Virus record (IMG/VR): IMGVR_UViG_3300044612_001035 | Span: 1 to 29,049 of that record | From: a virus | Length of the DNA: 29,049 nt | Reading direction: 5' to 3' (one strand) | Shown: piece after piece, positions 2,934 through 26,538 of the stretch | How the letters are laid out: the number at the start of each line of letters is the position of its first letter | Numbering within the stretch: the first letter of the stretch is position 1 | Notes under the pieces: generated by a model | What the model saw: the letters and a program-made list of their open reading frames with translations, nothing else | Told to the model about the DNA's origin: nothing | Databases searched by the model: none | Translations under genes and position numbers: made by a program

Positions 2934-2969
2934 AGAAATATACTTTAGGTGTAACTTAACCTTAAGGAG
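2934..2969 (+). promoter_or_regulatory. candidate late promoter and strong RBS (copy 1 of a 20-bp leader element)
   Basis: Bases 2934-2953 match 7313-7332 upstream of the major capsid gene at 19 of 20 positions. The core is TATACT (2939-2944) followed by TTAG. AAGGAG at 2964-2969 lies 9 bases before ATG 2979. Transcription would start near 2951. The shared block, larger than a -10 hexamer, suggests a dedicated high-output leader. Confidence 0.6.
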
Positions 2970-2978
2970 ATTTTTAAA

Positions 2979-3581
2979 ATGGCAAGAACAAATTTAAATA
3001 TTGTTGGCGTTAGAGCAGCAAACGCAACAGATTTAGTTGATGTTACTGGAGTTGATACTAAAGATGTAATCGCCCCAATGACATCAGGCAGAACGGATAT
3101 ATTAGCGGTTGGTGCTAACGCAGCAAACGGTACTCCAATTTCATCTTACAATGGCATAACTTCAACATTAAAGCAAAGTTTAGCAATACATTATGATTTC
3201 GCAACGGATGGCGGAGCGATTGGTACAATTCAATTAAGAGGCGGCGTGCTTCCAATAAACGCAATTATTACAAATGCTTGGCTTGAAGTATTAACTGGAT
3301 TTTTACCAACGACAACTTCAACAATTGCACTTGGTGTAACTGGTGCAGCAACAGCATTAAGAGCAGCAGCGGTTGCGACAGGTACTGTAGCACTTGATGC
3401 AGTAGCAAGAGTTGCGGTAATCGCTCCACAAACTCCAGCTTCTTTCGTTGCTAAATCTACAACTGCAAACAGAAACTTTATTATGACAATAGCAGCAGGT
3501 GCTTTTACAGCAGGACAATTTGTTCTTCACGTTGATTACGTTGTATCTGCATTAGATACTTCAACTGCTGCAACTAACTAA
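2979..3581 (+). CDS. abundant virion protein, possibly capsid decoration protein
   Basis: 200 residues, rich in A, T, V and G, with almost no cysteine or charge clusters, typical of a beta-rich structural protein. A central block (LAIHYDFATDGGAIGTIQL, then LPINAIITNAWLEVLTGF) resembles a recurring motif of phage head or fibre-associated proteins of unknown detailed function. The gene has one of the strongest Shine-Dalgarno sites in the window (AAGGAG, 9-base spacing). It also shares a nearly identical leader with the major capsid gene, which implies high expression. A decoration or cement role is inferred from expression signals and its position between TerL and portal. A fibre role is possible. 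Confidence 0.6.
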   Translation: MARTNLNIVGVRAANATDLVDVTGVDTKDVIAPMTSGRTDILAVGANAANGTPISSYNGITSTLKQSLAIHYDFATDGGAIGTIQLRGGVLPINAIITNAWLEVLTGFLPTTTSTIALGVTGAATALRAAAVATGTVALDAVARVAVIAPQTPASFVAKSTTANRNFIMTIAAGAFTAGQFVLHVDYVVSALDTSTAATN

Positions 3582-7312: not shown

Positions 7313-7361
7313 AGAAATATACTTTAGATGTACCCCTTAAGAAAGGGGCAAGTCTAAGGAG
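7313..7361 (+). promoter_or_regulatory. candidate late promoter, leader hairpin and RBS of the capsid gene (copy 2)
   Basis: Bases 7313-7332 repeat 2934-2953 with one change; the core is TATACT at 7318-7323. Immediately downstream, CCCCTT (7333-7338) and AAGGGG (7343-7348) form a 6-bp hairpin with an AAGA loop, close to the predicted RNA 5' end. AAGGAG (7356-7361) lies 11 bases before ATG 7373. The hairpin is absent from the first copy and may protect the mRNA end. Confidence 0.62.
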
Positions 7362-7372
7362 ATATTTCACAA

Positions 7373-8608
7373 ATGGTAAACCCAATAAACAGTGTTCTTT
7401 CAATCAATGATGCAAGAACGTATATGGAAGATGTCCAATCGGACATCATTAAAACCTCTGGAGTTAGAGCACCTTTCTTGATGAAGCACATGGCAACCGT
7501 TAGCAAAATGGGTTCCAAAGTTCAATGGTTTCAACAAGCAATTTCAAGGGGCGTATTAACTTTAACAGGAAGTTATTCAGCAGGTGGAACAACGTTCACG
7601 GTAGCTGCTCCAACAAGAGCTAATCCGTTTGACGTAGAAATTAAGCCTGGTATAACAAGATTAGTTAATCAATCTGGTTCTGCAAAATGGTTAGTAACTG
7701 GTGCGAACGGGGCTTTTACGAGCTTAACCATTCAGCTTTTAAGTGGTTATGCTGATCCAGCAACTTTAGCAATCGGTACTCAACTATTTACAGATAGAGC
7801 GGGCGAGATTGGTGATGGTTTTGGGGCAAATAATGACATTTCTCTAGCGGGATCTGATTTTAACTTCTACTCAAATTTCTTCCATGATATTCAAATCGCT
7901 GGTCCAGTAGCTAATGGTAAATTTAATTATGCTGGTATCAATGAATTAGATTTCAGCAATCAAGAAGAAAACTTACTTCCAACGATTATCAGAATGTTAG
8001 AAAGAAAAGCATTAAAAGATATTCGTTTAGAAGGTTCAAACCCATTAACGGCAGATGGTTTCACTAGAACTGCTGGTACTGGTGCTCAAGCTGGTGGTCT
8101 TAAGTTTTACATTGAGAACTCTGGTGGATACACTGTTACTGGTGGTAGTGCAAGTTTAACTGAGGCTACAGTAGAAGCAGATGTAATTGCTCTTAGAGAT
8201 CGTGGAGCATTACAAGGTCCTAAAGTATTTACTAGACCAACTGACCTAACAAACATTGATATGTATGTATCTGAGAATGGTTTATCTGCTCTTCAATCTC
8301 AAGTTCGTTTCCAAAGAGAAAACGCTCAAAATGTTGATGGCGGTTTAGGTTCATCTCAAGCGTATCACATGCTTGTTAATGGATGTAAATTAAACGCTCT
8401 TGTTTCTGACGGCGTTGGCGACAATGAAGTGTTCTATGTTCCTGCTGTAAATGATGTAATCCAAATCAACGTAATGAGAATGTTTGAGAAAGTTGGCAAT
8501 CCGTTTGAGGATGGTGATGGAATCAAGCAAAAATACGGTACTACTTTTACAGAATGTGTAAAAGCTCCATGGACTCTAGGCTACAGAAATAACTTAGTGG
8601 TTATCTAA
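7373..8608 (+). CDS. major capsid protein
   Basis: 411 residues, a usual size for an HK97-fold capsid protein. The N-terminal helical arm is followed by a beta insertion (TLTGSYSAGGTTFTVAAP). The middle holds the long spine-helix region (LLPTIIRMLERKALKDIRLEG), then a glycine-rich loop and a C-terminal P-domain ending ECVKAPWTLGYRNNLVVI. The pattern resembles capsid proteins of divergent podo- and siphophages, perhaps the group annotated DUF5309, though I cannot assign it firmly. Support is strong from context: scaffold immediately upstream, a dedicated leader with AAGGAG, and a strong intrinsic terminator directly after the stop. No HK97-type protease is encoded nearby, so maturation without the usual cleavage is possible. 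Confidence 0.85.
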   Translation: MVNPINSVLSINDARTYMEDVQSDIIKTSGVRAPFLMKHMATVSKMGSKVQWFQQAISRGVLTLTGSYSAGGTTFTVAAPTRANPFDVEIKPGITRLVNQSGSAKWLVTGANGAFTSLTIQLLSGYADPATLAIGTQLFTDRAGEIGDGFGANNDISLAGSDFNFYSNFFHDIQIAGPVANGKFNYAGINELDFSNQEENLLPTIIRMLERKALKDIRLEGSNPLTADGFTRTAGTGAQAGGLKFYIENSGGYTVTGGSASLTEATVEADVIALRDRGALQGPKVFTRPTDLTNIDMYVSENGLSALQSQVRFQRENAQNVDGGLGSSQAYHMLVNGCKLNALVSDGVGDNEVFYVPAVNDVIQINVMRMFEKVGNPFEDGDGIKQKYGTTFTECVKAPWTLGYRNNLVVI

Positions 8609-11813: not shown

Positions 11814-11819
11814 TATACT
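11814..11819 (+). promoter_or_regulatory. TATACT box close to the start of the first ejection gene
   Basis: TATACT followed by TAA lies 8 bases upstream of ATG 11828, in the short gap after the nozzle gene. No convincing -35 is visible. If used as a -10, transcription would begin at or next to the start codon. It is grouped with the boxes at 2939, 7318, 19337, 22109 and 23219. Confidence 0.35.
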
Positions 11820-11827
11820 TAATATAT

Positions 11828-12994
11828 ATGGCTAAAAAAGGCAGTTCTGGTGGTGGTGGCGGTGGCGGAAAAGCTGCTACAGTTGCCAATTCTTTGGCAG
11901 GTGTTAAGACGTTAGGTCCAGCAGCAGTAGCACCAATAGCGATTGATGCGATAGCAGGTGCAGTAGAGGCAGCTGCTCCAAAGTTTACATCAGGAATTAC
12001 AGAAGACGACATAAATAAAGGTCGCGGCGATATCAACAAAGGCTTTAGACAAGGAAGCGATATCCTTAGGGGTGGCGTAACTTCTGGCTCAGGCGTTGAA
12101 ATTGGGAGCTTAACTCCACAAACAAGAAAACAAAGACAAGATGATAAGATTAGAGCTATTTATGATTCAGAAGCTTTAGCTGGAAAAACCGAAGCTGAAA
12201 AAAAAGCTTTTGTTGAAAGATTTAGGCAAGGTGAACTTGGAAAGAAAGGCAGAGGTTTAGTTAAAGAAGCCTTGACGGGTGGCGGTTATAAATATGATCC
12301 TGCTACTGGCAAATATGTACCAAGCGAAACAGACCCATTTCTAACGACCCCATCTGATGAATTAAGAAAACAAGGTATAGAAAATACTGGTGATATTTTT
12401 GGCGAGATGGGAGATTTAACTTCTTTAATCGGTGAAGATGTTAAAGGTGCATTAGAGTATAAACAAAATTTAAGAGATTATTTTTCTAACCTTACTGGAT
12501 CAATGGATCAAGAAGGTTTAACGGCTCAAGATCAAGCAGATTTAGATGCACAATATACATCAGGGAGAAGAAGAGTCCAAGAAACTTTAAGAGATGATCT
12601 TCAAAGAACAATGGGTGACTTAACGCAACGTGGCTTTAGTTCTTCTAGTTTATCTAATCAAGCCTTGCAGCGTGGAGCATTTGACCCATTAAGTAGAAAC
12701 ATAGTAGATTTAGAGGCAAGCCAAGCAGGAATGAGGCAGGATATATTAAACGCTCGTACCTCACGCAGAGGGCAAGCGTTTAGAAATTTACTTGGTGCTG
12801 GAGCTCAATTAGGCTCAGGTGGATTTAGTAGTTTAACTTCTGGTATTGTATCGCCAACTGCTTATGGTGGCTTTACTGATCCTCAATCTGCTGAATTTAT
12901 GTATCGTGGCTTAAAAGATCAAGCTGGCAGACAAGATACACGTGGCACTAACTTAGCTACAATTCAAACAAAAGATAGGATGATTCAGTATTAA
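11828..12994 (+). CDS. internal virion (ejection) protein, first of three
   Basis: 388 residues. The N-terminus MAKKGSS is followed by an oligoglycine run and an alanine-rich hydrophobic helix (about residues 18-50). The middle is charged and helical. The region RRRVQETLRDDLQRTMGDLTQ followed by RGFSSSSLSNQALQRG is a pattern often seen in podovirus internal core proteins, where a helix with S-rich turns packs with partner proteins. It is followed within 2 bases by another glycine-rich gene and then a giant one, the same order as T7 gp14-gp15-gp16. An ejected core protein that helps DNA cross the envelope is therefore likely, by context more than sequence. Confidence 0.6.
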   Translation: MAKKGSSGGGGGGGKAATVANSLAGVKTLGPAAVAPIAIDAIAGAVEAAAPKFTSGITEDDINKGRGDINKGFRQGSDILRGGVTSGSGVEIGSLTPQTRKQRQDDKIRAIYDSEALAGKTEAEKKAFVERFRQGELGKKGRGLVKEALTGGGYKYDPATGKYVPSETDPFLTTPSDELRKQGIENTGDIFGEMGDLTSLIGEDVKGALEYKQNLRDYFSNLTGSMDQEGLTAQDQADLDAQYTSGRRRVQETLRDDLQRTMGDLTQRGFSSSSLSNQALQRGAFDPLSRNIVDLEASQAGMRQDILNARTSRRGQAFRNLLGAGAQLGSGGFSSLTSGIVSPTAYGGFTDPQSAEFMYRGLKDQAGRQDTRGTNLATIQTKDRMIQY

Positions 12995-13845: not shown

Positions 13846-16800
13846 ATGGATCTTGTTGAGTCTATTAATAAAATAAAAGCAAAAACAGTAGATCCATTAT
13901 TGGAAGATCAGGCTATTAAATATCTCGCAGGGAAGGTACAGAAAGGGCAAATTAACGAATCCAATGTAAACGAGGTTGTGTCTAAGATTAATTCTGGGCA
14001 TATAGAGTCGGGTGGTTTTGCGAAAGAAGCCATAGCAGATGCAATAAGAAGCGTTCCCATAGCTGGTAAAACAATAGCAGCAGGGATTAAATCAGCGGCA
14101 GAGATTCCAGCATTAATGCTAGAAGTTCCCGAAGCTGTAAAAAGCTTATCTTCTTTTGGCGGCAGGAAGGGCGTTAAGCAAGCATTAGGCGGGGCTGATT
14201 TAGCAGGTGGTTTAGCTCAAGCTGGAAAGTTTACAAGAGATTTAGCAAGTGATGTTACAGGGATACAAGACGGGCAAGGATTCCAGGATTTACCCACTGG
14301 TATTGGTACTGTAGCGGGGGCTTTAATTAGCGGAGCAGCATACTTTAAAGCTATTGGAGCAGCTACAGAAGGTGCTTTAGCGGCAAACATATTTAAAGAT
14401 TTAACAGCTAAGGGGATTGCAAAGACAGCAGCACAGGCAGGGACTAAAAGATTTATCGCAGGTACAGCAGCTAATACGATAGCAGGCTCTCCATTATCTC
14501 TAGCAGCTTCAATGGACGAAGAGGGGAATATTAACCCTAAAGACTTAGCTTTAAATTTAGCTATAGATACTGCATTCGGTGGAGTAATAGAAGGTGCTGG
14601 AGCAGCATTAACAAAGAATTACGGCAAGCAAGCTTTAAGAGAAGCGGGCAGAATGGCTCAAGGGCAAGAAGGTTTTATCTTTAGAGGTAATAGTAAAGAG
14701 TCTTTAAAAGGGATAGCTGAAACAAATAGGGCATTTAATAGACGTAACGTAGAAACTTACAAGGCTAAAGGTGCTAACGAAGCAAGAGCAGCAGAAGAAG
14801 CAAAAGCAGCAGCAGCACTGAAATATGAAAAGATTGAATCTGATTTAATGCAAGCTAGGTCTTTGACGGAGCAAAGGCAAGGACAATTAGCAGAAGAACA
14901 AACACGCTTAGGGCTTAAAGATGAGACTAGGCAGAATGTATCTACCTTAAATGAAATGTATGAAGCCGAAAAGCAGACAGTATTCAAGCAGATAGACACA
15001 GAGCAAGACAAGTTAGTATCTGAAATTCAAAGAGAAAGCGAACAAAAAACAAAAGATTTAGTTAAGCAAAAGGCTGACATAGACAAGCAAGAACGTACAT
15101 TAACTAAACCGTTTGACCTAGAAGAAAAGAATTTAGCTAAACAACAGAAGCAAGTTAATGACTCTTATCAACGTGCTAAAAAGCAGGCTGAGACGGAGCC
15201 TGTAGAAATCGCTCAAGCTCCTGAAGCTATTTCCCAAGAAACTCCAGTAGCACCACAAAGAAATTATGAAGAAGAATTCAATCTTTTTCAAACAGAAACA
15301 AATACTAAATACGAAAATTTAAAAACTCAATTAGAAGAATCTAAGCAGAAAAAGATTGCAGAACTTGATACTAAATTCAAACAGAAGCAAGAATCTTATG
15401 CACGTGAAATTGAGCAATCTAAAGCAGAGTATTCTAAGTCGCTTGATGAAATTGACAACTTACCAGACTCGGTAAGTAAAGAAAAAAAAGCAAAACGAGT
15501 TAAACAATATTTTGAAAATAAATTACAAAGCTTAGAAAGAAATAACCAAAAGCTAGAAGGTCTATATTCTCAAGCGGTTAAGCAAACCGAAGAACAGATT
15601 GCTAGTAAATTAACGGCATCTCAAGGTGATTTTGAAAAGAGTTTAAGGTCAAAGCAAACGGAATTAGCAGAGCAGCAATTAGGCAAACTTGATCCAACTT
15701 ATCAAATTTCGTTTAATAAATTTCAAAAAGACTTAAGCTCTCAAGTTAAAGCTAAGGTTGAAAATATTAAGATTTTTAAAACAAAAAAAACTGATGCCTT
15801 AAAGCTTGAATTGCAAAAACTAAAAGAGGCTTCTGCGGAAGCTGATATTTCTTACAACAAGATTAAACGTGATTCCTTACAAGAAGGAGCATTAGAGAAA
15901 TTCGATGAAACAGAAAAAGCAATAGTTGCAACAAAAAAGAAACTAGATAATCTTAAAAAACTTTATGCACAAAAATTAAAAGAAATAAACGAAACAGCCA
16001 ATCGTCAAATTGAAATAGTAAAAGCTAAAGCAGAGCAACAATTAAAAGCACAAGAAGACAAAGTTAATGCCTTAAAACAAAAAAGACAAGATAAGCGTAG
16101 TAAATCAGGAGAGCTTTTAACGCAAGAAGAACTAAATGCAATTCCAAGTATTAAAACAGCAAACATTGCACTTGGTAAATATAAATATCAAGCAAAAGAA
16201 GCAACTCAAAGAAAGATAGCGAATATTAAATCTTTTGCAAAAGAAAAGATTGGAAAACTTGAATCGGGGCTAAAAGAAGAAAAGGCAAACCTTGAATCTC
16301 TTTTACAGCAAAAAGAATCATTAAAACCTATTTTAGATAACCCATCTTTAAAAAAAGCAGAGGAACAACGAAATAAAATACAAGAGCAATTAAATAAATT
16401 TAAAAATAAAATTTATCCAGAGAAATTAAAAAAACTGCAAGAAACAGTAGCAAAACAAATAGACACGGTAAAAACAAAACAACAGCAAGCATTAGAAGCA
16501 AAGCAAACTGAAATAAGTCAATTAAGAGCAGACGTAGAAACAAGGCGTTTACAAGATACAGAGCTGCAAAAGCAACAACTTAAAGAGCAAAGACTTAAAG
16601 CGTTAGATGATGAATACAATGCAGCTAGATCAGATGTAGATACTAGGCTTAGTGTAACTAATGCAAATAGAAACCAAGCTGTATCAGAGTTTCAAACTAA
16701 GAAACAAGCTTTACTAGAGCAACAACAAAAGCTAGAGCAAGAAGTTAAAGACAAAATAGATTATCTAAATAGACGTAGAGAGGTATTGAAGAAGCAAAAA

Positions 16801-19329
16801 GAAGTTGCTTTAGATCGTCAATTTAAAAAAGATGCGTTAAGAGAGTACAGAGCGAAGATGGGAATAGAGACTCCTGTCTTGCGTAATGCTGATGATATCG
16901 AAGTAGATCGAATGATTGCTAAAGAGGAATTAGATCAGATTGATTCTCAGCTAGCAGAACTTAGAAATAAGATGAATCCACCAGATACGAACGTATCTAA
17001 ACAAGGGGCTAATATCCCTGCGGCAACGGCAGAAACTTTCTATGCAGATATGATGCAGGCAATGTATCCAAATAATAAAAAGTTAAAAGCGAAGACAGCT
17101 CGTCATGGGGCTTTTGTAAATGATGTTGATATTCCAACTGCAACAACTAAACCTGAAAATATTGTTGTAAAAAAGATAGGTGAAGCTGGAGATTTAGCGA
17201 ACGATGTATTACAACCAATGATCTCAGGGTTAAGGGATGTATCGGCTAGGCTTGCTGGAAAAGTTAGACAGTTTGAATTTATGGCTGCAAAAAAAGCTAA
17301 TAAATATTTAGAGCCTGCTGCGACTTTCTTTACTAAACTAAATAGATTTTTAACTAAAGAAGAAAAAGAACTATTTAATTCATATCTTGTTAAGGGAGAT
17401 CAAGAAAGTATTTTAGCTTTCCTTAGCAAAATAGATGCACAGGGCAAACAATATCAGGAATTACCTGCTTTAATTAAAGCTCCTGTTAAGTTTTTAAATG
17501 CAGAAGATACAAGCAGAGATTTTCTTAAACACATTAATAAACCTTTGACTGAACAATGGCAAGCGGTAAGAGAAACGCTAGACGATTTACACGGGCAGTT
17601 AGAAGATGCTGGTATAGAAGTTGGTTATATTCAAGATTATTTCCCTACAAGCGTTAAGAAAGATAGCGTTGATACGTGGCGTGAAATATTCGGTATCGGC
17701 ACAGAAGAAAGATCAGCTTTTGATGCGGCTTTAAAACAAGAAAGAAAAAGACTTGGAAGAGATTTAGACCTTGACGAAGAGAACGAATTTATAAACAAAT
17801 ACTTAAGAGGTTACGGGAATACAAATAGCACACCAGTATTAGCAAACTTAAAAGCTAGATCAGGGCTTGCTCAAGGCATGGAAGGATTAACCTTTAGAGA
17901 TGCTAAAGGCGAAGAGCGTTTAATCTCAACTTTATATAATGACCCATCAACAACTTTAGAAAATTATATTAACAGGGCTACTTTTGATATAGAATCTAGA
18001 AAATTCTTTGGCAGAACAGAAGAGGGATTGGATACAAGTATTGGTGCTTATGTTAATGATTTAATGGTATCGGGTCAAATCAAGGGATCTGATGTAGACA
18101 AGGTTAAAGAATTATTGACTGCTAGATTTGTTCAAGGTCCAAAAAAACCAGCAGATTTTACAAGGCTTGGAAAAGATTTAGCGATAGGTTTTGCGTTAAA
18201 TGATATTGGTTCAGCTTTAGTTCAAGTCAATGAAACGGGAATGAGCTTTTATCGCAACGGTTTATTAAATACAATTAAGGGATTAGGACAGGCTTTTAAT
18301 CCCAAGGCTTTAAAAACTTTAGATTTAGGTATCCAAAGGATTGGAGCTGATTATGCAGATGCTCCATCTATTATGCGTGCAGCAGTAGATTTAGGGTTAA
18401 AACTAAACGGCTTTAAGGCAGCTAACAAACTAATGCAAGAAACGCAAATTAATGCAGGTTTTAATTACTTTAAAAATGTCTTTGCTAAAGAGAAGGGAGC
18501 TAGGTTTAATAAAGAATACTCTTACCTAAAAGGTGCTTTTGGAGCTGAGGAAGCGGATAGAATGGTTGATGCCTTTAGAAGCAAGAGCCTGCAAGAAGCT
18601 TTTGACGATGATAGTATTGGGCTAGCTTTATTTGATAGACTAGGGGCAACTCAAGTTATTTCTTTAAGTGATATGCCTAAGGTTTATTTAAAGCATCCTA
18701 ACTCAAGAATGTTTTATGCACTTAAGAGTTTTGCTTTGAAGCAGCTCCAGTTTATTAAAGACGAATCATATAGCAAGATAGCTGGTTCTATAAAGTCTAT
18801 GGCAACAGAAGGAGCAAATCCTAAGAATATAAAACTAGGTGGCGAAGGACTGCGTAACCTAATGGCACTAGGTTTAATCGTTGGTGGCACAAATACTGGC
18901 GTAAATTATTTAAGAGATGCCTTAAGGGGCAAGACTAGCGAGGATTATCAATCCTTAGAAGAAAGAGCTGTTGAAGGTTTAATGCAGGCGACTGTTCCAA
19001 TAGTCAATCCGTTTATCTTCTATAAGATTCAAAAAGAAGGGATTGGTAACGCTCTTAAAAACTGGGTTTCCCCTGCGACTCCACTTATAGATAATATTAG
19101 TAAAGATACTTTAGAATTTGGCAAGGCAATGGATAAAGGGGAAGACTATAACCCGTGGTTATCAAGAACTTTATTTAGCATGATTCCTGTAGCTGGTGCG
19201 ACTTTATGGTCGTGGAGTCCTGCTGGACGTGAGCAATACGAAAAAGTAATAAAAGCTAAAGTTAAAAACAGAGCAACTAAAGAAAAGAAAGTAAAAGAAA
19301 AAGAACTTGCAGAGTTGAGAGGCTATTAA
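13846..19329 (+). CDS. giant internal virion / DNA-ejection protein
   Basis: 1827 residues, the largest product here and longer than T7 gp16 (about 1318). Approximate domains: residues 1-270 contain alanine/glycine-rich hydrophobic helices (IGTVAGALISGAAYFKAIGA) that could span or insert into a membrane. Residues 290-1050 form a very long K/E/Q coiled coil with few breaks. Residues 1060-1827 are a mixed globular part with W, Y and F motifs (VNETGMSFYRNGLL; VGGTNTGVNYLRDALRG) and a lysine-rich end. I see no lysozyme or transglycosylase signature at the N-terminus. The likely role is formation of the trans-envelope conduit during ejection. It starts directly after the previous TAG, so translation is probably coupled. 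The polyvalent-protein type of large phage protein is an alternative. Confidence 0.7.
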   Translation: MDLVESINKIKAKTVDPLLEDQAIKYLAGKVQKGQINESNVNEVVSKINSGHIESGGFAKEAIADAIRSVPIAGKTIAAGIKSAAEIPALMLEVPEAVKSLSSFGGRKGVKQALGGADLAGGLAQAGKFTRDLASDVTGIQDGQGFQDLPTGIGTVAGALISGAAYFKAIGAATEGALAANIFKDLTAKGIAKTAAQAGTKRFIAGTAANTIAGSPLSLAASMDEEGNINPKDLALNLAIDTAFGGVIEGAGAALTKNYGKQALREAGRMAQGQEGFIFRGNSKESLKGIAETNRAFNRRNVETYKAKGANEARAAEEAKAAAALKYEKIESDLMQARSLTEQRQGQLAEEQTRLGLKDETRQNVSTLNEMYEAEKQTVFKQIDTEQDKLVSEIQRESEQKTKDLVKQKADIDKQERTLTKPFDLEEKNLAKQQKQVNDSYQRAKKQAETEPVEIAQAPEAISQETPVAPQRNYEEEFNLFQTETNTKYENLKTQLEESKQKKIAELDTKFKQKQESYAREIEQSKAEYSKSLDEIDNLPDSVSKEKKAKRVKQYFENKLQSLERNNQKLEGLYSQAVKQTEEQIASKLTASQGDFEKSLRSKQTELAEQQLGKLDPTYQISFNKFQKDLSSQVKAKVENIKIFKTKKTDALKLELQKLKEASAEADISYNKIKRDSLQEGALEKFDETEKAIVATKKKLDNLKKLYAQKLKEINETANRQIEIVKAKAEQQLKAQEDKVNALKQKRQDKRSKSGELLTQEELNAIPSIKTANIALGKYKYQAKEATQRKIANIKSFAKEKIGKLESGLKEEKANLESLLQQKESLKPILDNPSLKKAEEQRNKIQEQLNKFKNKIYPEKLKKLQETVAKQIDTVKTKQQQALEAKQTEISQLRADVETRRLQDTELQKQQLKEQRLKALDDEYNAARSDVDTRLSVTNANRNQAVSEFQTKKQALLEQQQKLEQEVKDKIDYLNRRREVLKKQKEVALDRQFKKDALREYRAKMGIETPVLRNADDIEVDRMIAKEELDQIDSQLAELRNKMNPPDTNVSKQGANIPAATAETFYADMMQAMYPNNKKLKAKTARHGAFVNDVDIPTATTKPENIVVKKIGEAGDLANDVLQPMISGLRDVSARLAGKVRQFEFMAAKKANKYLEPAATFFTKLNRFLTKEEKELFNSYLVKGDQESILAFLSKIDAQGKQYQELPALIKAPVKFLNAEDTSRDFLKHINKPLTEQWQAVRETLDDLHGQLEDAGIEVGYIQDYFPTSVKKDSVDTWREIFGIGTEERSAFDAALKQERKRLGRDLDLDEENEFINKYLRGYGNTNSTPVLANLKARSGLAQGMEGLTFRDAKGEERLISTLYNDPSTTLENYINRATFDIESRKFFGRTEEGLDTSIGAYVNDLMVSGQIKGSDVDKVKELLTARFVQGPKKPADFTRLGKDLAIGFALNDIGSALVQVNETGMSFYRNGLLNTIKGLGQAFNPKALKTLDLGIQRIGADYADAPSIMRAAVDLGLKLNGFKAANKLMQETQINAGFNYFKNVFAKEKGARFNKEYSYLKGAFGAEEADRMVDAFRSKSLQEAFDDDSIGLALFDRLGATQVISLSDMPKVYLKHPNSRMFYALKSFALKQLQFIKDESYSKIAGSIKSMATEGANPKNIKLGGEGLRNLMALGLIVGGTNTGVNYLRDALRGKTSEDYQSLEERAVEGLMQATVPIVNPFIFYKIQKEGIGNALKNWVSPATPLIDNISKDTLEFGKAMDKGEDYNPWLSRTLFSMIPVAGATLWSWSPAGREQYEKVIKAKVKNRATKEKKVKEKELAELRGY

Positions 19330-19336
19330 ATTAGAG

Positions 19337-19342
19337 TAAACT
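19337..19342 (+). promoter_or_regulatory. TAAACT box before the fibre module
   Basis: TAAACTTAAAAC begins at 19337, and GTG 19352 follows the hexamer by 9 bases. The same TAAACTTAAA string occurs at 22109 and 23219, each time just before a gene start. It may be a promoter -10 box. No Shine-Dalgarno better than ACAGAG is present. Confidence 0.4.
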
Positions 19343-19351
19343 TAAAACAGA

Positions 19352-20074
19352 GTGGCAACTAAAGGCGATTTAACAACTCCATCATCTAGCTCATTAACTA
19401 CGTTTACTAATGGTGCTGGTAATTTTATTGATGCAGTTGATGCGAATGGTAACTTTGCTTATTTACTTGGGCAATTAATAACTTTAAATAATGTAATAGC
19501 AGATCAAATGCCTCAACTTGGTGTGGCTAGCGTTTATACTGCTTTGCAAACTTTTACTACAATTGCGGTAAATATAATTAATGAAGCGACTTTAAACGGG
19601 GATATAGTTTTAGATTGTAACGGTTCAGGGAAAGTACGTTACGCAGATGGCTCTAGCGACACCGAAATAGCTTCTAAAGGTTATGTTCAAGGTGTAGCTT
19701 TTACGGCGGGTAATGTTCCTAGTGGCGGTACTGCTTCGACTTGGCTAGAGGGTGACGGTACTTGGACTGACCCAAGAACATATACCCCGTGGACGACAAG
19801 GGCTGTTAATTTTACGGCAGTAAATAAAGGTCAATATTCTATCAATACTGGATTAAATGTTCAATTACCTTCACCTACTGCAACAATTCACCTTAGGGTA
19901 AAACCAGCAATAGGACAAGATTTTACAGCGACACCATCAACTTTGGTAAGGGCAGGCTCAGAGCAAATAGCAGGAGATGCAGCTAGCTATACGATGGACG
20001 TAAACGCTATCTATGAGATTACAAGTAATGGTACTAACTGGGATGTATCAATAGCACCAATAGGGAGAGTTTAA
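19352..20074 (+). CDS. tail fibre-type protein
   Basis: 240 residues from a GTG start. The N-terminus (GDLTTPSSSSLTTFTNGAGNFIDA) and the central SKGYVQ...PSGGTASTWLEGDGTW segment are typical of phage tail-fibre linkers. The C-terminal third is a beta domain ending NGTNWDVSIAPIGRV, like receptor-binding heads. The 3-base gap to the polyglycine gene suggests that the two form parts of one fibre or adhesin. There is no chaperone domain. The receptor is unknown. Confidence 0.65.
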   Translation: MATKGDLTTPSSSSLTTFTNGAGNFIDAVDANGNFAYLLGQLITLNNVIADQMPQLGVASVYTALQTFTTIAVNIINEATLNGDIVLDCNGSGKVRYADGSSDTEIASKGYVQGVAFTAGNVPSGGTASTWLEGDGTWTDPRTYTPWTTRAVNFTAVNKGQYSINTGLNVQLPSPTATIHLRVKPAIGQDFTATPSTLVRAGSEQIAGDAASYTMDVNAIYEITSNGTNWDVSIAPIGRV

Positions 20075-20077
20075 TAT

Positions 20078-21319
20078 ATGGTAAATGCAAGTGATTTATT
20101 TGGCGGTGGAGGTGGAGCAGTTGAGATCATCAACGGCTCAGGATACACTCCCGATTTTAGAATACCTTTGGTTTTAAAAAAGAACTCTAACAGTTCTAAT
20201 GATTTTACTTCTACTGGTAACTTTACCTTTGGTACTGGATACCATAACTTTAGAAACTTCACTATAGGCGTTGGTCATCAAATGACTTTATCTGCTGGTT
20301 TAACTATTATAAATTGTTCAGAGACTTTTACCTGCGGTGGTAATGGTATTACTGGGGCAACTGGAACGCTTTTAACTTTAGCTGATAATTATACTTTACA
20401 AACCGTTGGTTCCGTAGGAACTGGTGGAGCCGCTGGGACTGGTGGTGCTAATCCTTCAATAACTCCCCCTGGAAACGGAACTGCTGGCGGTGCTGGCACT
20501 GCTGGTGGAGTCGGTGCTGCTTCTATGAGTGGAGGCGGTGGCGGTGGCGGCGGAGTTCCAGGCGACACAGGCAGGAATGGTGGTGCAGGCGTTACTAGTG
20601 GAACTGGAAATGCTGGTGCTGGTTCTGGTGGAACTGGTGGCGGCGGCGGTTCTGGTGGTGCTAGTGGCAATGCGGCTGGTGGGGCAGGCAGCAGTGGAGG
20701 CGGCGGTAATGCTGGTGGTACTGGAGGTACTGGCGGTGCTAACGGTGGAAATCAAGCTTGTGGATTAATTATCATCGCTAAAAACGTTGTAGTATCCGCC
20801 AATATTAATTTAAGTGGTGCTATTGGTGCTAACGCTGGTAATGGTACTAATGGTGCTAATGGTGCTGGTACTGGTTCTGGTGCTGGAGGCGGTGGCGGTG
20901 GCGGCGGTGCTGGTGATGGCGGTAGAGGCGGACTTTTAGGCATATTCTGTAAATCCTTAACTCATACCTCTGGAGCTATATCTGCTAATGGCGGTAACGG
21001 CGGGATTGGTGGTAATGGCGGTAATGGTGGTAATGGTACTGGTGCTACGGCTGCTGGCGGCGGCGGTGGTGGTGGTGGTGCTGGTGGAGTTGGTGGAACT
21101 GCTGGTAAATTAATACTTGCTTATGGTTCAGCTACTCTATCTGGTGGTACAAGAACAGCTACGGCGGGTACTGGTGGTGCTGGCGGCACTGGTGGCACTG
21201 GAGGTACTGGAACATCTGGAGCTGGTGCTGCTGGTGGAGCAAGTGCTACGGCTGCTATAGGTTTAACCAATCTATACTATCTAAACCAAGATATTAGAAC
21301 AGGCGACCCATTCAGCTAA
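20078..21319 (+). CDS. polyglycine-rich tail adhesin
   Basis: 413 residues. A beta-rich N-terminal 120 residues leads into about 260 residues dominated by glycine in GG, GGA, GGT and GNG patterns, interrupted by short hydrophobic strands (ACGLIIIAKNVVV, GLLGIFCKSLTH, KLILAYGSATL). The C-terminus is NLYYLNQDIRTGDPFS. Packed polyglycine-II helices between beta segments are known from the S16 gp38-type phage adhesin, and this looks like a similar architecture by composition. It probably forms the tip that contacts the host surface. The DNA is locally much richer in G than its neighbours because of GGT/GGC/GGA codons, which creates spurious proline- and serine-rich frames on the other strand. Confidence 0.7.
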   Translation: MVNASDLFGGGGGAVEIINGSGYTPDFRIPLVLKKNSNSSNDFTSTGNFTFGTGYHNFRNFTIGVGHQMTLSAGLTIINCSETFTCGGNGITGATGTLLTLADNYTLQTVGSVGTGGAAGTGGANPSITPPGNGTAGGAGTAGGVGAASMSGGGGGGGGVPGDTGRNGGAGVTSGTGNAGAGSGGTGGGGGSGGASGNAAGGAGSSGGGGNAGGTGGTGGANGGNQACGLIIIAKNVVVSANINLSGAIGANAGNGTNGANGAGTGSGAGGGGGGGGAGDGGRGGLLGIFCKSLTHTSGAISANGGNGGIGGNGGNGGNGTGATAAGGGGGGGGAGGVGGTAGKLILAYGSATLSGGTRTATAGTGGAGGTGGTGGTGTSGAGAAGGASATAAIGLTNLYYLNQDIRTGDPFS

Positions 21320-21337: not shown

Positions 21338-21607
21338 ATGAAACCAAACAAAGGCAAAGCAGTAGCTAAAGAAAACTTTAATTTCAAGAAAGAGCATAAA
21401 TCTGATAAAGGCGGTTTGACAGAAAAAGGGCGTAAAGCTTATAATGCAGCTACAGGTTCTAACTTACAAGCACCTCAACCACAAGGCGGAGCTAGGAAGA
21501 AATCCTACTGTGCTAGAAGCAAAGGACAGATGAACGATTATAATATTGATTGTTCTAAAACTCCTGAAAAAAGGATTTGCAAGGCTAGAAAGAGATGGAA
21601 GTGTTAA
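21338..21607 (+). CDS. small basic Cys-containing phage protein (DUF6321-like)
   Basis: 89 residues, strongly basic. The order KGGLTEKGRKAYNAATGSNLQAP, then ARKKSYCARSKGQM, then ICKARKRWKC at the end matches a widespread small phage protein family that I recall as DUF6321. Its function is not known. AGGA sits 5 bases before the ATG. It heads a run of four lysine-rich small genes. DNA binding is plausible from charge, but this is only inference. Confidence 0.7.
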   Translation: MKPNKGKAVAKENFNFKKEHKSDKGGLTEKGRKAYNAATGSNLQAPQPQGGARKKSYCARSKGQMNDYNIDCSKTPEKRICKARKRWKC

Positions 21608-21859: not shown

Positions 21860-22111
21860 ATGGCTGAACGCAATTATAAAAAAGAATACTCAAATTATCA
21901 CAGTTCTAAAGAGCAAAAAGAAAAACGTGCTTCTCGTAATGCTGCTAGAAGAAAGATGGAAGCGGATGGGAAATGCTCTAAAGGAGATGGACGAGACATT
22001 GACCATAAAAACGGCAATCCAAAAGATAATTCTAAATCAAACTTAAGAGTTCAATCTAAATCACAGAACAGATCATTCCCAAGAAACAGTAATGGCGGTA
22101 AAAAGAGATAA
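21860..22111 (+). CDS. HNH-type nuclease-like protein
   Basis: 83 residues. A basic helical N-terminus (SKEQKEKRASRNAARRKM) is followed by GDGRDIDHKNGNPKDN, with D48-H49 and N51-G-N, then SNLRVQS and a terminal N70-R. This is the H-N-N pattern of phage HNH proteins: DH, NGN...DN, NL, N. The protein is very short, so activity would depend on the compact metal-binding core. It could nick DNA near packaging ends or act as a homing nuclease. HNH proteins often accompany terminases, but this one lies in the fibre module. It could equally be an inactive DNA-binding relative. Confidence 0.7.
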   Translation: MAERNYKKEYSNYHSSKEQKEKRASRNAARRKMEADGKCSKGDGRDIDHKNGNPKDNSKSNLRVQSKSQNRSFPRNSNGGKKR

Positions 22112-22114
22112 ACT
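22109..22114 (+). promoter_or_regulatory. TAAACT box 6 bases before a start codon
   Basis: TAAACT is followed by TAAAAC and then ATG 22121. The string overlaps the stop of the HNH-like gene. If it acts as a -10 box, transcription would start at or within a base or two of the ATG. No Shine-Dalgarno is present, which fits a leaderless start. Confidence 0.4.
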
Positions 22115-22120
22115 TAAAAC

Positions 22121-22441
22121 ATGAGCGGACTAGGACCAAGAGGAACATCAGCAACACCAGTAGCTATTTTAGGTGGAGCAACGCACGCAATCTCTTTTAC
22201 TGGAACAAGTGCAAGAAACACAACGGCTTTTAATACAAGAACTAGGGTTTTATCCGCAATGGTAGCAGACCAAAACTGTTACATTGAAGCTGGTGATAGT
22301 ACGGTAGTAGCCACTACATCAAGCACTTACTTAGCTTCGGGGGCAGTATATAGTTTCGGCATCGACTCAAACATTACACATATAGCTGTTATCAGGGCTA
22401 CTGCTGATGGTACACTAAGATTCTTTGAATCAAAGTCTTAA
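22121..22441 (+). CDS. small virion-type beta protein
   Basis: 106 residues. GLGPRGTSATPVAILGG at the start, then VLSAMVADQNCYIEAGDSTVVAT and a C-terminal THIAVIRATADGTLRFFES. This pattern, a compact beta barrel with an ADQ-CYI-AGDS strand, resembles small phage decoration or fibre-associated proteins. The stop lies 12 bases inside the 3' end of the convergent sigma gene. The virion role is inferred. Confidence 0.6.
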   Translation: MSGLGPRGTSATPVAILGGATHAISFTGTSARNTTAFNTRTRVLSAMVADQNCYIEAGDSTVVATTSSTYLASGAVYSFGIDSNITHIAVIRATADGTLRFFESKS

Positions 22442-23194
22442 GGCTTCGTAATCCCCCCGCAAAGATTCTTTTAGAAATGTCAAGTTCCTATTTAACATTT
22501 TATTTAATTCAAAGCAAGTTAGGTTATAGATTTCACACAATTTGCTTTTAGTTAGCTCTTGATTCAAGTAACTTAAAACTATAGGGTATTCATCCTCGGG
22601 GATTTGAGATAAGAAGTATTCTAAATTTTCCGAAAGATCATCATATTCTTTTGAGGCAAAAGGGATACTTTCTTTAATTAATTCATGGTCGTTCAAAGGT
22701 GCGTCTATAGATTCTACTAATTGACTTGAATAGGCTTGATATAGTTTAGTAAATTGATTTTTTGAAAGCTTCAATTTCTCTCTAATAGTTTCAAGCGGTT
22801 CAACATTAAGAAGATTATGCAGTTCTTGAATTGCATAATATTTCAACACTGGAATTTTAATTGTTGAAGAAGTTTGAATAAACTTCTGAATCCGTTGATT
22901 AACCCATTGTCCAGCATAGGTGCTAAATCTATAGCCTAGCTTTGGATTAAACTTTTCGGCGGCACGCTTTAACCCTGTAACGGCTTCTGATATTAAATCT
23001 TCTAATTCATAGCCTCGGTCAATAAATCTATTAGCGATGTGTCTAGCTAGTCTTAAGTTATGATAAATCAAAATCTTTTCATAGTTTAGTCTTGATAATT
23101 CATTTTGATTAAACCATAAAGCCAGTTCCCTTTCTTCACTTTCCTTAAGGACTGGTATTTGTTTTATTTTGTTTAAAAGGTCGGATAAACTCAT
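22430..23194 (-). CDS. phage-encoded sigma-70 family RNA polymerase sigma factor
   Basis: 254 residues from the ATG at 23194. A longer reading from 23296 would overlap the opposite gene at 23232 and adds no sigma sequence. A region 1.2-like start (LLNKIKQIPVLKESEERELA) precedes a clear region 2 at residues 38-107, including NLRLARHIANRF, LEDLISEAVTGLKRAAEKF and YRFSTYAGQWVNQRIQKFI. TIKIPV at 111-116 marks region 3.0, and a weak region 4 lies at about 200-247. Aligned to E. coli sigma-70 by eye, W433 becomes Q96, T440 becomes Q103, H455 becomes L117 and E458 becomes Y120, while Q437 (Q100) is kept. The region 4 helix lacks the usual RERIRQIE pattern. It probably redirects host polymerase to phage promoters. 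It is the only minus-strand gene in the fibre module, inserted between rightward genes. Confidence 0.88.
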   Translation of the reverse strand: MSLSDLLNKIKQIPVLKESEERELALWFNQNELSRLNYEKILIYHNLRLARHIANRFIDRGYELEDLISEAVTGLKRAAEKFNPKLGYRFSTYAGQWVNQRIQKFIQTSSTIKIPVLKYYAIQELHNLLNVEPLETIREKLKLSKNQFTKLYQAYSSQLVESIDAPLNDHELIKESIPFASKEYDDLSENLEYFLSQIPEDEYPIVLSYLNQELTKSKLCEIYNLTCFELNKMLNRNLTFLKESLRGDYEALRL

Positions 23195-23200
23195 ATTTAT

Positions 23201-23206
23201 ATTATA
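23201..23206 (-). promoter_or_regulatory. TATAAT box 6 bases upstream of the sigma gene
   Basis: Reading leftward, TATAAT is followed by ATAAAT and then the ATG at 23194. There is no Shine-Dalgarno. The perfect -10 hexamer at this distance suggests a host-read promoter producing a leaderless or nearly leaderless sigma mRNA. The gap of 37 bases to the rightward gene at 23232 must hold both divergent promoters. Confidence 0.45.
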
Positions 23207-23218
23207 AAGTACATAGGA

Positions 23219-23224
23219 TAAACT
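23219..23224 (+). promoter_or_regulatory. TAAACT box opposite the sigma promoter
   Basis: TAAACTTAAA starts at 23219, and GTG 23232 follows the hexamer by 7 bases. This third copy of the string lies in the 37-base divergent gap shared with the sigma gene promoter. It is a candidate for a promoter read by the sigma factor itself, which would couple the two directions. Confidence 0.4.
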
Positions 23225-23231
23225 TAAAGTA

Positions 23232-23384
23232 GTGAGTAACGGATTAGACCTTGAATTAGATTTAATGCTAGGGCAGCAAGTCGTAGCAGGGGACATTCCA
23301 GTGGAAACTTTTTACATTCTTCAAGAAGACAGTTTTAAAATTCTTCAAGAAGATAGTTTTGGGATATTAACAGAAAATGCCTGA
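23232..23384 (+). CDS. 50-residue tail-type protein with tandem ILQEDSF repeats
   Basis: GTG 23232 to TGA 23382-23384. The product starts MSNGLDLELDLMLGQQVVA, followed by VETFYILQEDSF, KILQEDSF and a degenerate GILTEN. Two 24-bp units (23316-23339 and 23340-23363) encode the repeats and differ at few bases. The stop overlaps the next ATG (23377) by 8 bases, a coupling that supports translation. Short repeats of this type occur near fibre genes of other phages. The function is unknown. Confidence 0.65.
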   Translation: MSNGLDLELDLMLGQQVVAGDIPVETFYILQEDSFKILQEDSFGILTENA

Positions 23385-26467: not shown

Positions 26468-26538
26468 GGACGGGGTTGGAATATTAAATGTTCTGAGTAC
26501 ACGTGATCAGGAAGTAGGTTCGAATCCTACCTCCGTCC
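26468..26538 (+). tRNA. tRNA-like element, non-canonical (decoding unclear)
   Basis: A 7-bp acceptor, GACGGGG (26469-26475) with CTCCGTC (26531-26537, one G-U pair), and a canonical T-arm GTAGG-TTCGAAT-CCTAC (26514-26530). G26468 can pair with C26538 as an extra pair, as in tRNA-His. The middle is abnormal. No D-arm with a GG loop can be drawn. The best anticodon-like arm is a 6-bp stem TTCTGA/TCAGGA (26491-26496 with 26507-26512) with a 10-base loop GTACACGTGA. A competing fold makes a loop ATTAAAT (26483-26489) with a Leu TAA anticodon, but then no D-arm remains. CCA is not encoded. It could be a degenerate tRNA, a D-armless tRNA, or a structured tRNA mimic. Confidence 0.5.

Follow-up and report, generated by a model that had tools for sequence, protein, structure and literature searches.

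The sigma factor gene of a tailed phage that lies on the minus strand at 22430..23194 of the window (the whole stretch of DNA analysed, 29,049 nucleotides, a linear IMG/VR virus record) raises the question of which promoters its product would read. The coordinates given in an earlier note on this DNA are correct: the open reading frame runs on the minus strand from an ATG at 23194 to a stop codon at 22430-22432 and encodes 254 amino acids. According to four libraries, the protein is a sigma-70-family factor, as it was matched by Pfam Sigma70_r2 (1.4e-13, 50.8 bits, cut-off 24), NCBIfam TIGR02937 (63.6 bits, cut-off 42.9), PHROG 351, which was its best profile match (1.2e-34, residues 8-241), and RpoS chains in the PDB (1.7e-18). 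Homologues are 90, 91 and 77% identical to it. The gene is the sole clear minus-strand gene within the plus-strand late block of this tailed-phage genome, which contains terminase (PHROG 2, 8e-29), connector and tail genes. A small HNH_3 endonuclease gene (21860-22111) is located two genes ahead of it. Elsewhere in the window, the gene at 13846-19329 encodes 1827 residues with a long glutamine/lysine-rich middle, and had no PHROG match.

The domain order is the same as in PHROG 351 sigmas and in bacterial RpoS and SigA, the best profile matches, but the protein lacks region 1.1 and the non-conserved region, its region 3.0 is shorter, and W433 and the -35-reading residues are lost. It is not a Group 4 (ECF) sigma, which would have only regions 2 and 4, as stretches of regions 1.2 and 3 align and are modelled as helices. 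Nor is it a Group 1 (primary) sigma: W434 is kept, and W433, H455/E458 and R584/E585/R588 are replaced.

Region 2, which is responsible for -10 reading and melting, spans residues 43-107 (22874..23068, minus strand, Pfam Sigma70_r2) and includes Q96, W97, Q100 and Q103. We mapped its residues in three ways: by phmmer against PDB sigmas, by MAFFT with E. coli RpoD, RpoS, RpoH and FliA, and by hhalign of family profiles. The earlier note had claimed that W433, T440, H455 and E458 of sigma-70 are replaced, and it was right: region 2.4/3.0 of this phage sigma is changed. W433->Q96, T440->Q103 and H455->L117 appeared in both the MAFFT and the phmmer alignments, and E458->Y120 appeared when phmmer aligned the protein to SigA without gaps; in MAFFT, there is a gap at that position. 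The profile comparison, named beforehand as the one that could refute the claim, does not restore the canonical residues. Moreover, Q96, Q103, L117 and Y120 are invariant in the homologues of 77-91% identity (90, 91 and 77%), so that the proposed conservation check also came out in favour of the replacements, all four being fixed in four homologues down to 77% identity. Further substitutions in the phmmer and MAFFT alignments are R436->N99 and R451->K113. Unchanged are Y425, F427, S428, T429, Y430, W434 and Q437; residues to which the reading of -12T and -11A has been linked are among them (PMC2613000, PMC4593229).

Conservation of the W-dyad is confined to primary sigmas; at these positions, bulky hydrophobic residues are preferred in alternative ones (PMC4593229). 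Among the alternative E. coli sigmas aligned by MAFFT, position 433 is Q in FliA and H in RpoH, and RpoS carries E and K at 440 and 458, respectively. Judged from these alignments, the four changes are the mark of an alternative sigma, within the known range rather than unique, because T440 and E458 are variable among ordinary sigmas and the Q at 433 recurs in FliA. Regions 1.2 and 2 had both been described as clear. This holds for region 2 (Sigma70_r2, 1.4e-13), but region 1.2 is weak by sequence, with 13.4 Pfam bits against a cut-off of 22, and draws its support from a structure model, in which residues 1-109 fit sigma-70 with an rmsd of 2.1 A over 108 residues.

A candidate target of such a factor is the sequence TA(A/T)ACTT(A/T)A (TAWACTTWA), which is present on the plus strand directly upstream of six late genes in the window. 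It occurs as TATACTTTA at 2939..2947, preceding gene 2979-3581, and at 7318..7326, preceding the probable major capsid gene 7373-8608; as TATACTTAA at 11814..11822, preceding gene 11828-12994; and as TAAACTTAA at 19337..19345, 22109..22117 and 23219..23227, preceding genes 19352-20074, 22121-22441 and 23232-23384, respectively, the last of which is divergent from the sigma gene. Five of these places had been proposed as transcription templates (2934, 7313, 19337, 22109 and 23219), and each has a real conserved element; the sixth, 11814, had been missed. Two more copies are found inside plus-strand genes, at 20390 and 24801. The -10 had been expected to be altered, which is true only in a mild form: TAWACT retains -12T, -11A and -7T, consistent with the kept equivalents of Q437, W434, Y430 and N383, and it is the C at -8 and the extra TWA that are distinctive.

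If the first T of the element is taken as -12, start codons fall at about +1 (22121), +2 (23232), +3 (11828) and +4 (19352), and the mRNAs of these four genes would have almost no leader. At 2939 and 7318, the element lies 31-46 bases ahead of the start codon, and the leader in between has a separate Shine-Dalgarno sequence, AAGGAGAT. In phiEco32, transcription starts 6-8 bases past the element (PMC8948821); the same spacing at 22109 would place the start point inside or past the first codon. The position of four sites 3-6 bases ahead of a start codon would also suit a translation or RNA-processing signal that is no promoter at all. We find this very improbable, as the sites at 2939 and 7318 are far from the start codon and are followed by a Shine-Dalgarno sequence of their own, and as the distances suit a start point 12-13 bases past the first T.

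The six sites are orthologous in four sigma-bearing genomes, those of the window, G1 (25.7 kb), G2 (42.7 kb) and G3 (40.9 kb), and five more fragments have TAWACTTWA too, in those parts of them that are available. The window and G3, the 77% relative, are identical in 54/54 motif columns, as compared with 124/186 (67%) in the 31 columns upstream, some of which are coding; as all the sigma-bearing genomes are close relatives, this conservation is partly due to common descent. The ratios of motif counts on the late strand to those on the other strand were 8:1, 9:1, 8:3 and 13:1 in the four genomes, and a reversed-pattern control gave 0-5. A count-only k-mer test scored A-rich patterns equally high, and a composition-aware test was used in its place. 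In the latter, a scan of every 9-mer with two wildcards, TAnACTTnA ranked first in the upstream regions of the window (14/500 shuffles were as good) and second in G3; the unbiased p of the motif is only about 0.03 in one genome. The motif is sharp, as one-mismatch copies were not found upstream of late starts in the window. A search for the looser GGATAAACTTAA gave a number near chance (11 vs 7.1).

Two syntenic relatives without the sigma offered a comparison. One of them, a prophage carried by a Candidatus Caenarcanales MAG (contig JABSOS010000004.1, about 32-72 kb), has the same late module (terminase 63%, capsid 53%). At the sigma position it carries a different minus-strand gene, adjoining a homologue of 22121-22441, and we found no sigma in the prophage region. 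The syntenic relative IMG/VR 3300038585_000195 (terminase 43%) has no sigma either. The exact motif is upstream of 6/21 late starts in the window, 0/18 in the prophage and 0/17 in IMG/VR 3300038585_000195, that is, 0/35 late starts in the sigma-less relatives vs 6/21 (Fisher 0.0017), although these relatives are distant (TerL 63% and 43%), and their motif could differ for other reasons. This distribution suggests that the phage sigma and TAWACTTWA may work together.

The same comparison bears on whether the host primary sigma would use the six sites as ordinary promoters, with TATACT or TAAACT as their -10s, perhaps assisted by a phage activator, the phage sigma having other promoters or a different purpose. 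TAWACT shares four or five of six bases with TATAAT, so that the host sigma might read it, and at 19337 there is a TTGAGA 16 bases upstream. Nevertheless, we regard this explanation as rather unlikely. The six sites have no common -35 or TGn, the primary consensus has neither the fixed C at -8 nor the TWA downstream, and the sharpness of the motif at the late starts of the window is also against it. In addition, the motif is absent from the sigma-less relatives and is not enriched in the prophage-bearing host, the whole MAG having 520 copies vs 578 of the reversed control.

Sequences of the host type do occur elsewhere. A TATAAT on the minus strand at 23201..23206, six bases before the sigma ATG, is conserved in all relatives checked (window, G1, G2 and G3) and is likely a host-read promoter from which the sigma gene would be transcribed nearly leaderless. 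In G2, one early gene on the minus strand carries a perfect TTGACA-18-TATAAT; a strong sigma-70 promoter was not seen at most other early genes. Another perfect TTGACA-18-TATAAT, present also in G2, lies at 21416-21446 inside the ORF 21338-21607, where it encodes LTEKGRKAYNAA and possibly reflects coding constraint. TTATAAT also precedes a tRNA-like sequence (GGACGGGG...GGTTCGAATCCTACCTCCGTCCC) at 26468-26538, which adjoins tRNA-Tyr, was not called by ARAGORN, and is a weak tRNA-Sec-type match under the curated score.

At the late sites, we found no recurring hexamer in the -35 region: the best TTGACA match averaged 3.3/6 vs 2.9 by chance over the six sites, with a weak TTGACA-like hexamer at 19337 and in parts of 2939/7318. 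In G2, the flank of the 22109 site beyond about 18 bases upstream, including the -35 region, is replaced, and the element is intact. The protein shows a matching picture. It gave no Pfam Sigma70_r4 match at E<=10, and a degenerate region 4 (residues 187-254; 22433..22636, minus strand), a predicted helix-turn-helix, was recovered by hhalign, which carries the alignment through residue 247, and by modelling. Structure prediction was of no use with four close homologues as input (mean pLDDT 41); including one viral sigma of greater distance raised the pLDDT to 67. In this second model, region 4 is predicted to form a helix-turn-helix (helices 216-222 and 227-244) with a pLDDT of 83-89 for residues ~200-240, which, as the input alignment contained one canonical sigma, is no more than supportive; the placement of the domains relative to each other is unreliable (rmsd about 24 A over all domains).

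The recognition helix comprises about residues 226-240 (22475-22519, minus strand). In sigma-70, R584, E585 and R588 read the -35, and R584C by itself relaxes the reading of -31 (PMC2613000). In the phage sigma, these residues correspond to C227, F228 and N231, and the pair at 584/585 differs among the relatives (C-F, L-I, F-I and Y-F). Thus, the earlier claims that the recognition helix has lost its charged pattern and that there is little or no -35 contact agree with the C/F/N substitution, with a region 4 devoid of known -35-reading residues, and with a late element that has no common -35. Region 4 drifts faster than region 2 between the window and G3, with identities of 66% and 89%, respectively, and of 67% for the recognition helix. 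In contrast to this drift in the rest of region 4, residues 241-253 show full conservation; these 13 residues perhaps make a core contact. The conserved C-terminal tail reads FLKESLRGDYEALR (22436-22477).

Could region 4 read a -35 of its own kind, as in phage 7-11 gp47, from a weak shared upstream element that six copies do not reveal? The model predicts the region 4 fold, and upstream of the element an A recurs 8 bases away and a G 4 bases away. Yet the base-reading positions are occupied by hydrophobic residues that differ from relative to relative, upstream identity is at background farther than about 10 bases from the element, and the 22109 flank in G2 has been replaced, which makes such reading unlikely in our opinion.

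We consider it probable that the protein is a late-gene sigma that reads TAWACTTWA, a single -10-like element, in place of the host primary sigma and with no specific -35. Early genes and the sigma gene would be read by the host holoenzyme, the sigma being made from its host-type TATAAT promoter. Late in infection, the phage sigma would associate with host RNA polymerase in place of the host primary sigma, and the phage holoenzyme would recognise TAWACTTWA at the six late-gene starts through region 2. This region would read -12T, -11A and -7T as in sigma-70, and the adjoining TWA would be contacted perhaps via region 1.2. Region 4 would keep its fold for core binding with the base-reading residues lost, and because of that loss no specific -35 would be needed. 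We infer the reading of the motif by the sigma, the late timing, the position of the start points and the roles of individual residues, and link the sigma to the motif because the two co-occur, the kept residues match the kept bases, and the -35 is missing on both sides.

The earlier note had drawn an analogy in logic to T4 gp55, a late sigma without region 4 that reads a single -10-like element and acts together with gp33 and the clamp gp45. This is not the closest model: gp55 depends on gp33/gp45, and phiEco32 gp36, with its single element and no -35, is closer. A late sigma with a single -10-like element would be common to gp55 and the phage sigma, but region 4, absent in gp55, is degenerate here. 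That the sigma is gp55-like to the point of needing a co-activator and a clamp or a link to replication is highly improbable; the single -10-like element without a -35 and the degenerate region 4 would fit, but the helix-turn-helix modelled in region 4 is unlike gp55, and the late element TAWACTTWA differs from TATAAATA, that of gp55.

The podovirus late/middle sigma gp36 of phiEco32 reads a single element at about -10 (tAATGTAtA) and no -35 (PMC8948821). As there, the sigma is phage-encoded, a few element copies lie ahead of structural genes, and late genes run opposite to early genes. Sequence comparison reveals here one conserved element with no common -35, a candidate target of this sigma. 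Unlike gp36, which has no region 4 homology, the protein has a degenerate region 4 that aligns in hhalign, and the element differs, being here the sigma-70-like TAWACT; phiEco32 is absent among the sequence matches listed for the phage sigma. Phage 7-11 gp47 (SaPh711_gp47) is likewise a late phage sigma with a region 4-like C-terminus, but it reads the bipartite GTAAtg-16-aCTA (PMC8948821), and a second element was not found here. Since the promoters computed for phage 7-11 (PMC4331800) gave way to a different motif on experiment (PMC8948821), a computed motif calls for restraint.

As for the host, a non-photosynthetic member of the Cyanobacteriota is plausible for the phage of the window, given the single prophage relative. 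Among 382 genomes of the host class, that prophage was the only one found. Family-profile searches for more distant sigma-bearing relatives returned the same close ones and unrelated sigmas only, and in the phages collection the terminase had only weak matches and the capsid protein no relative. More tentatively, region 4 may be a core-binding module without DNA reading within a full sigma-70 plan, in a lineage linked to non-photosynthetic Cyanobacteriota, where the enlarged -10 (TAWACT + TWA) would set start codons at +1 to +4 and so couple promoter choice to leaderless translation.

Single-element phage sigmas are already known from phiEco32, which limits the surprise. For the phage lineage of this sigma we found no cultured member. 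The candidate sigma-promoter pair can draw on six templates, on four sigma variants that occur in nature, and on two relatives lacking the sigma. Its confirmation would show how -35 reading can be lost from a sigma that retains region 4, and would provide a late-promoter motif for annotating these phages.
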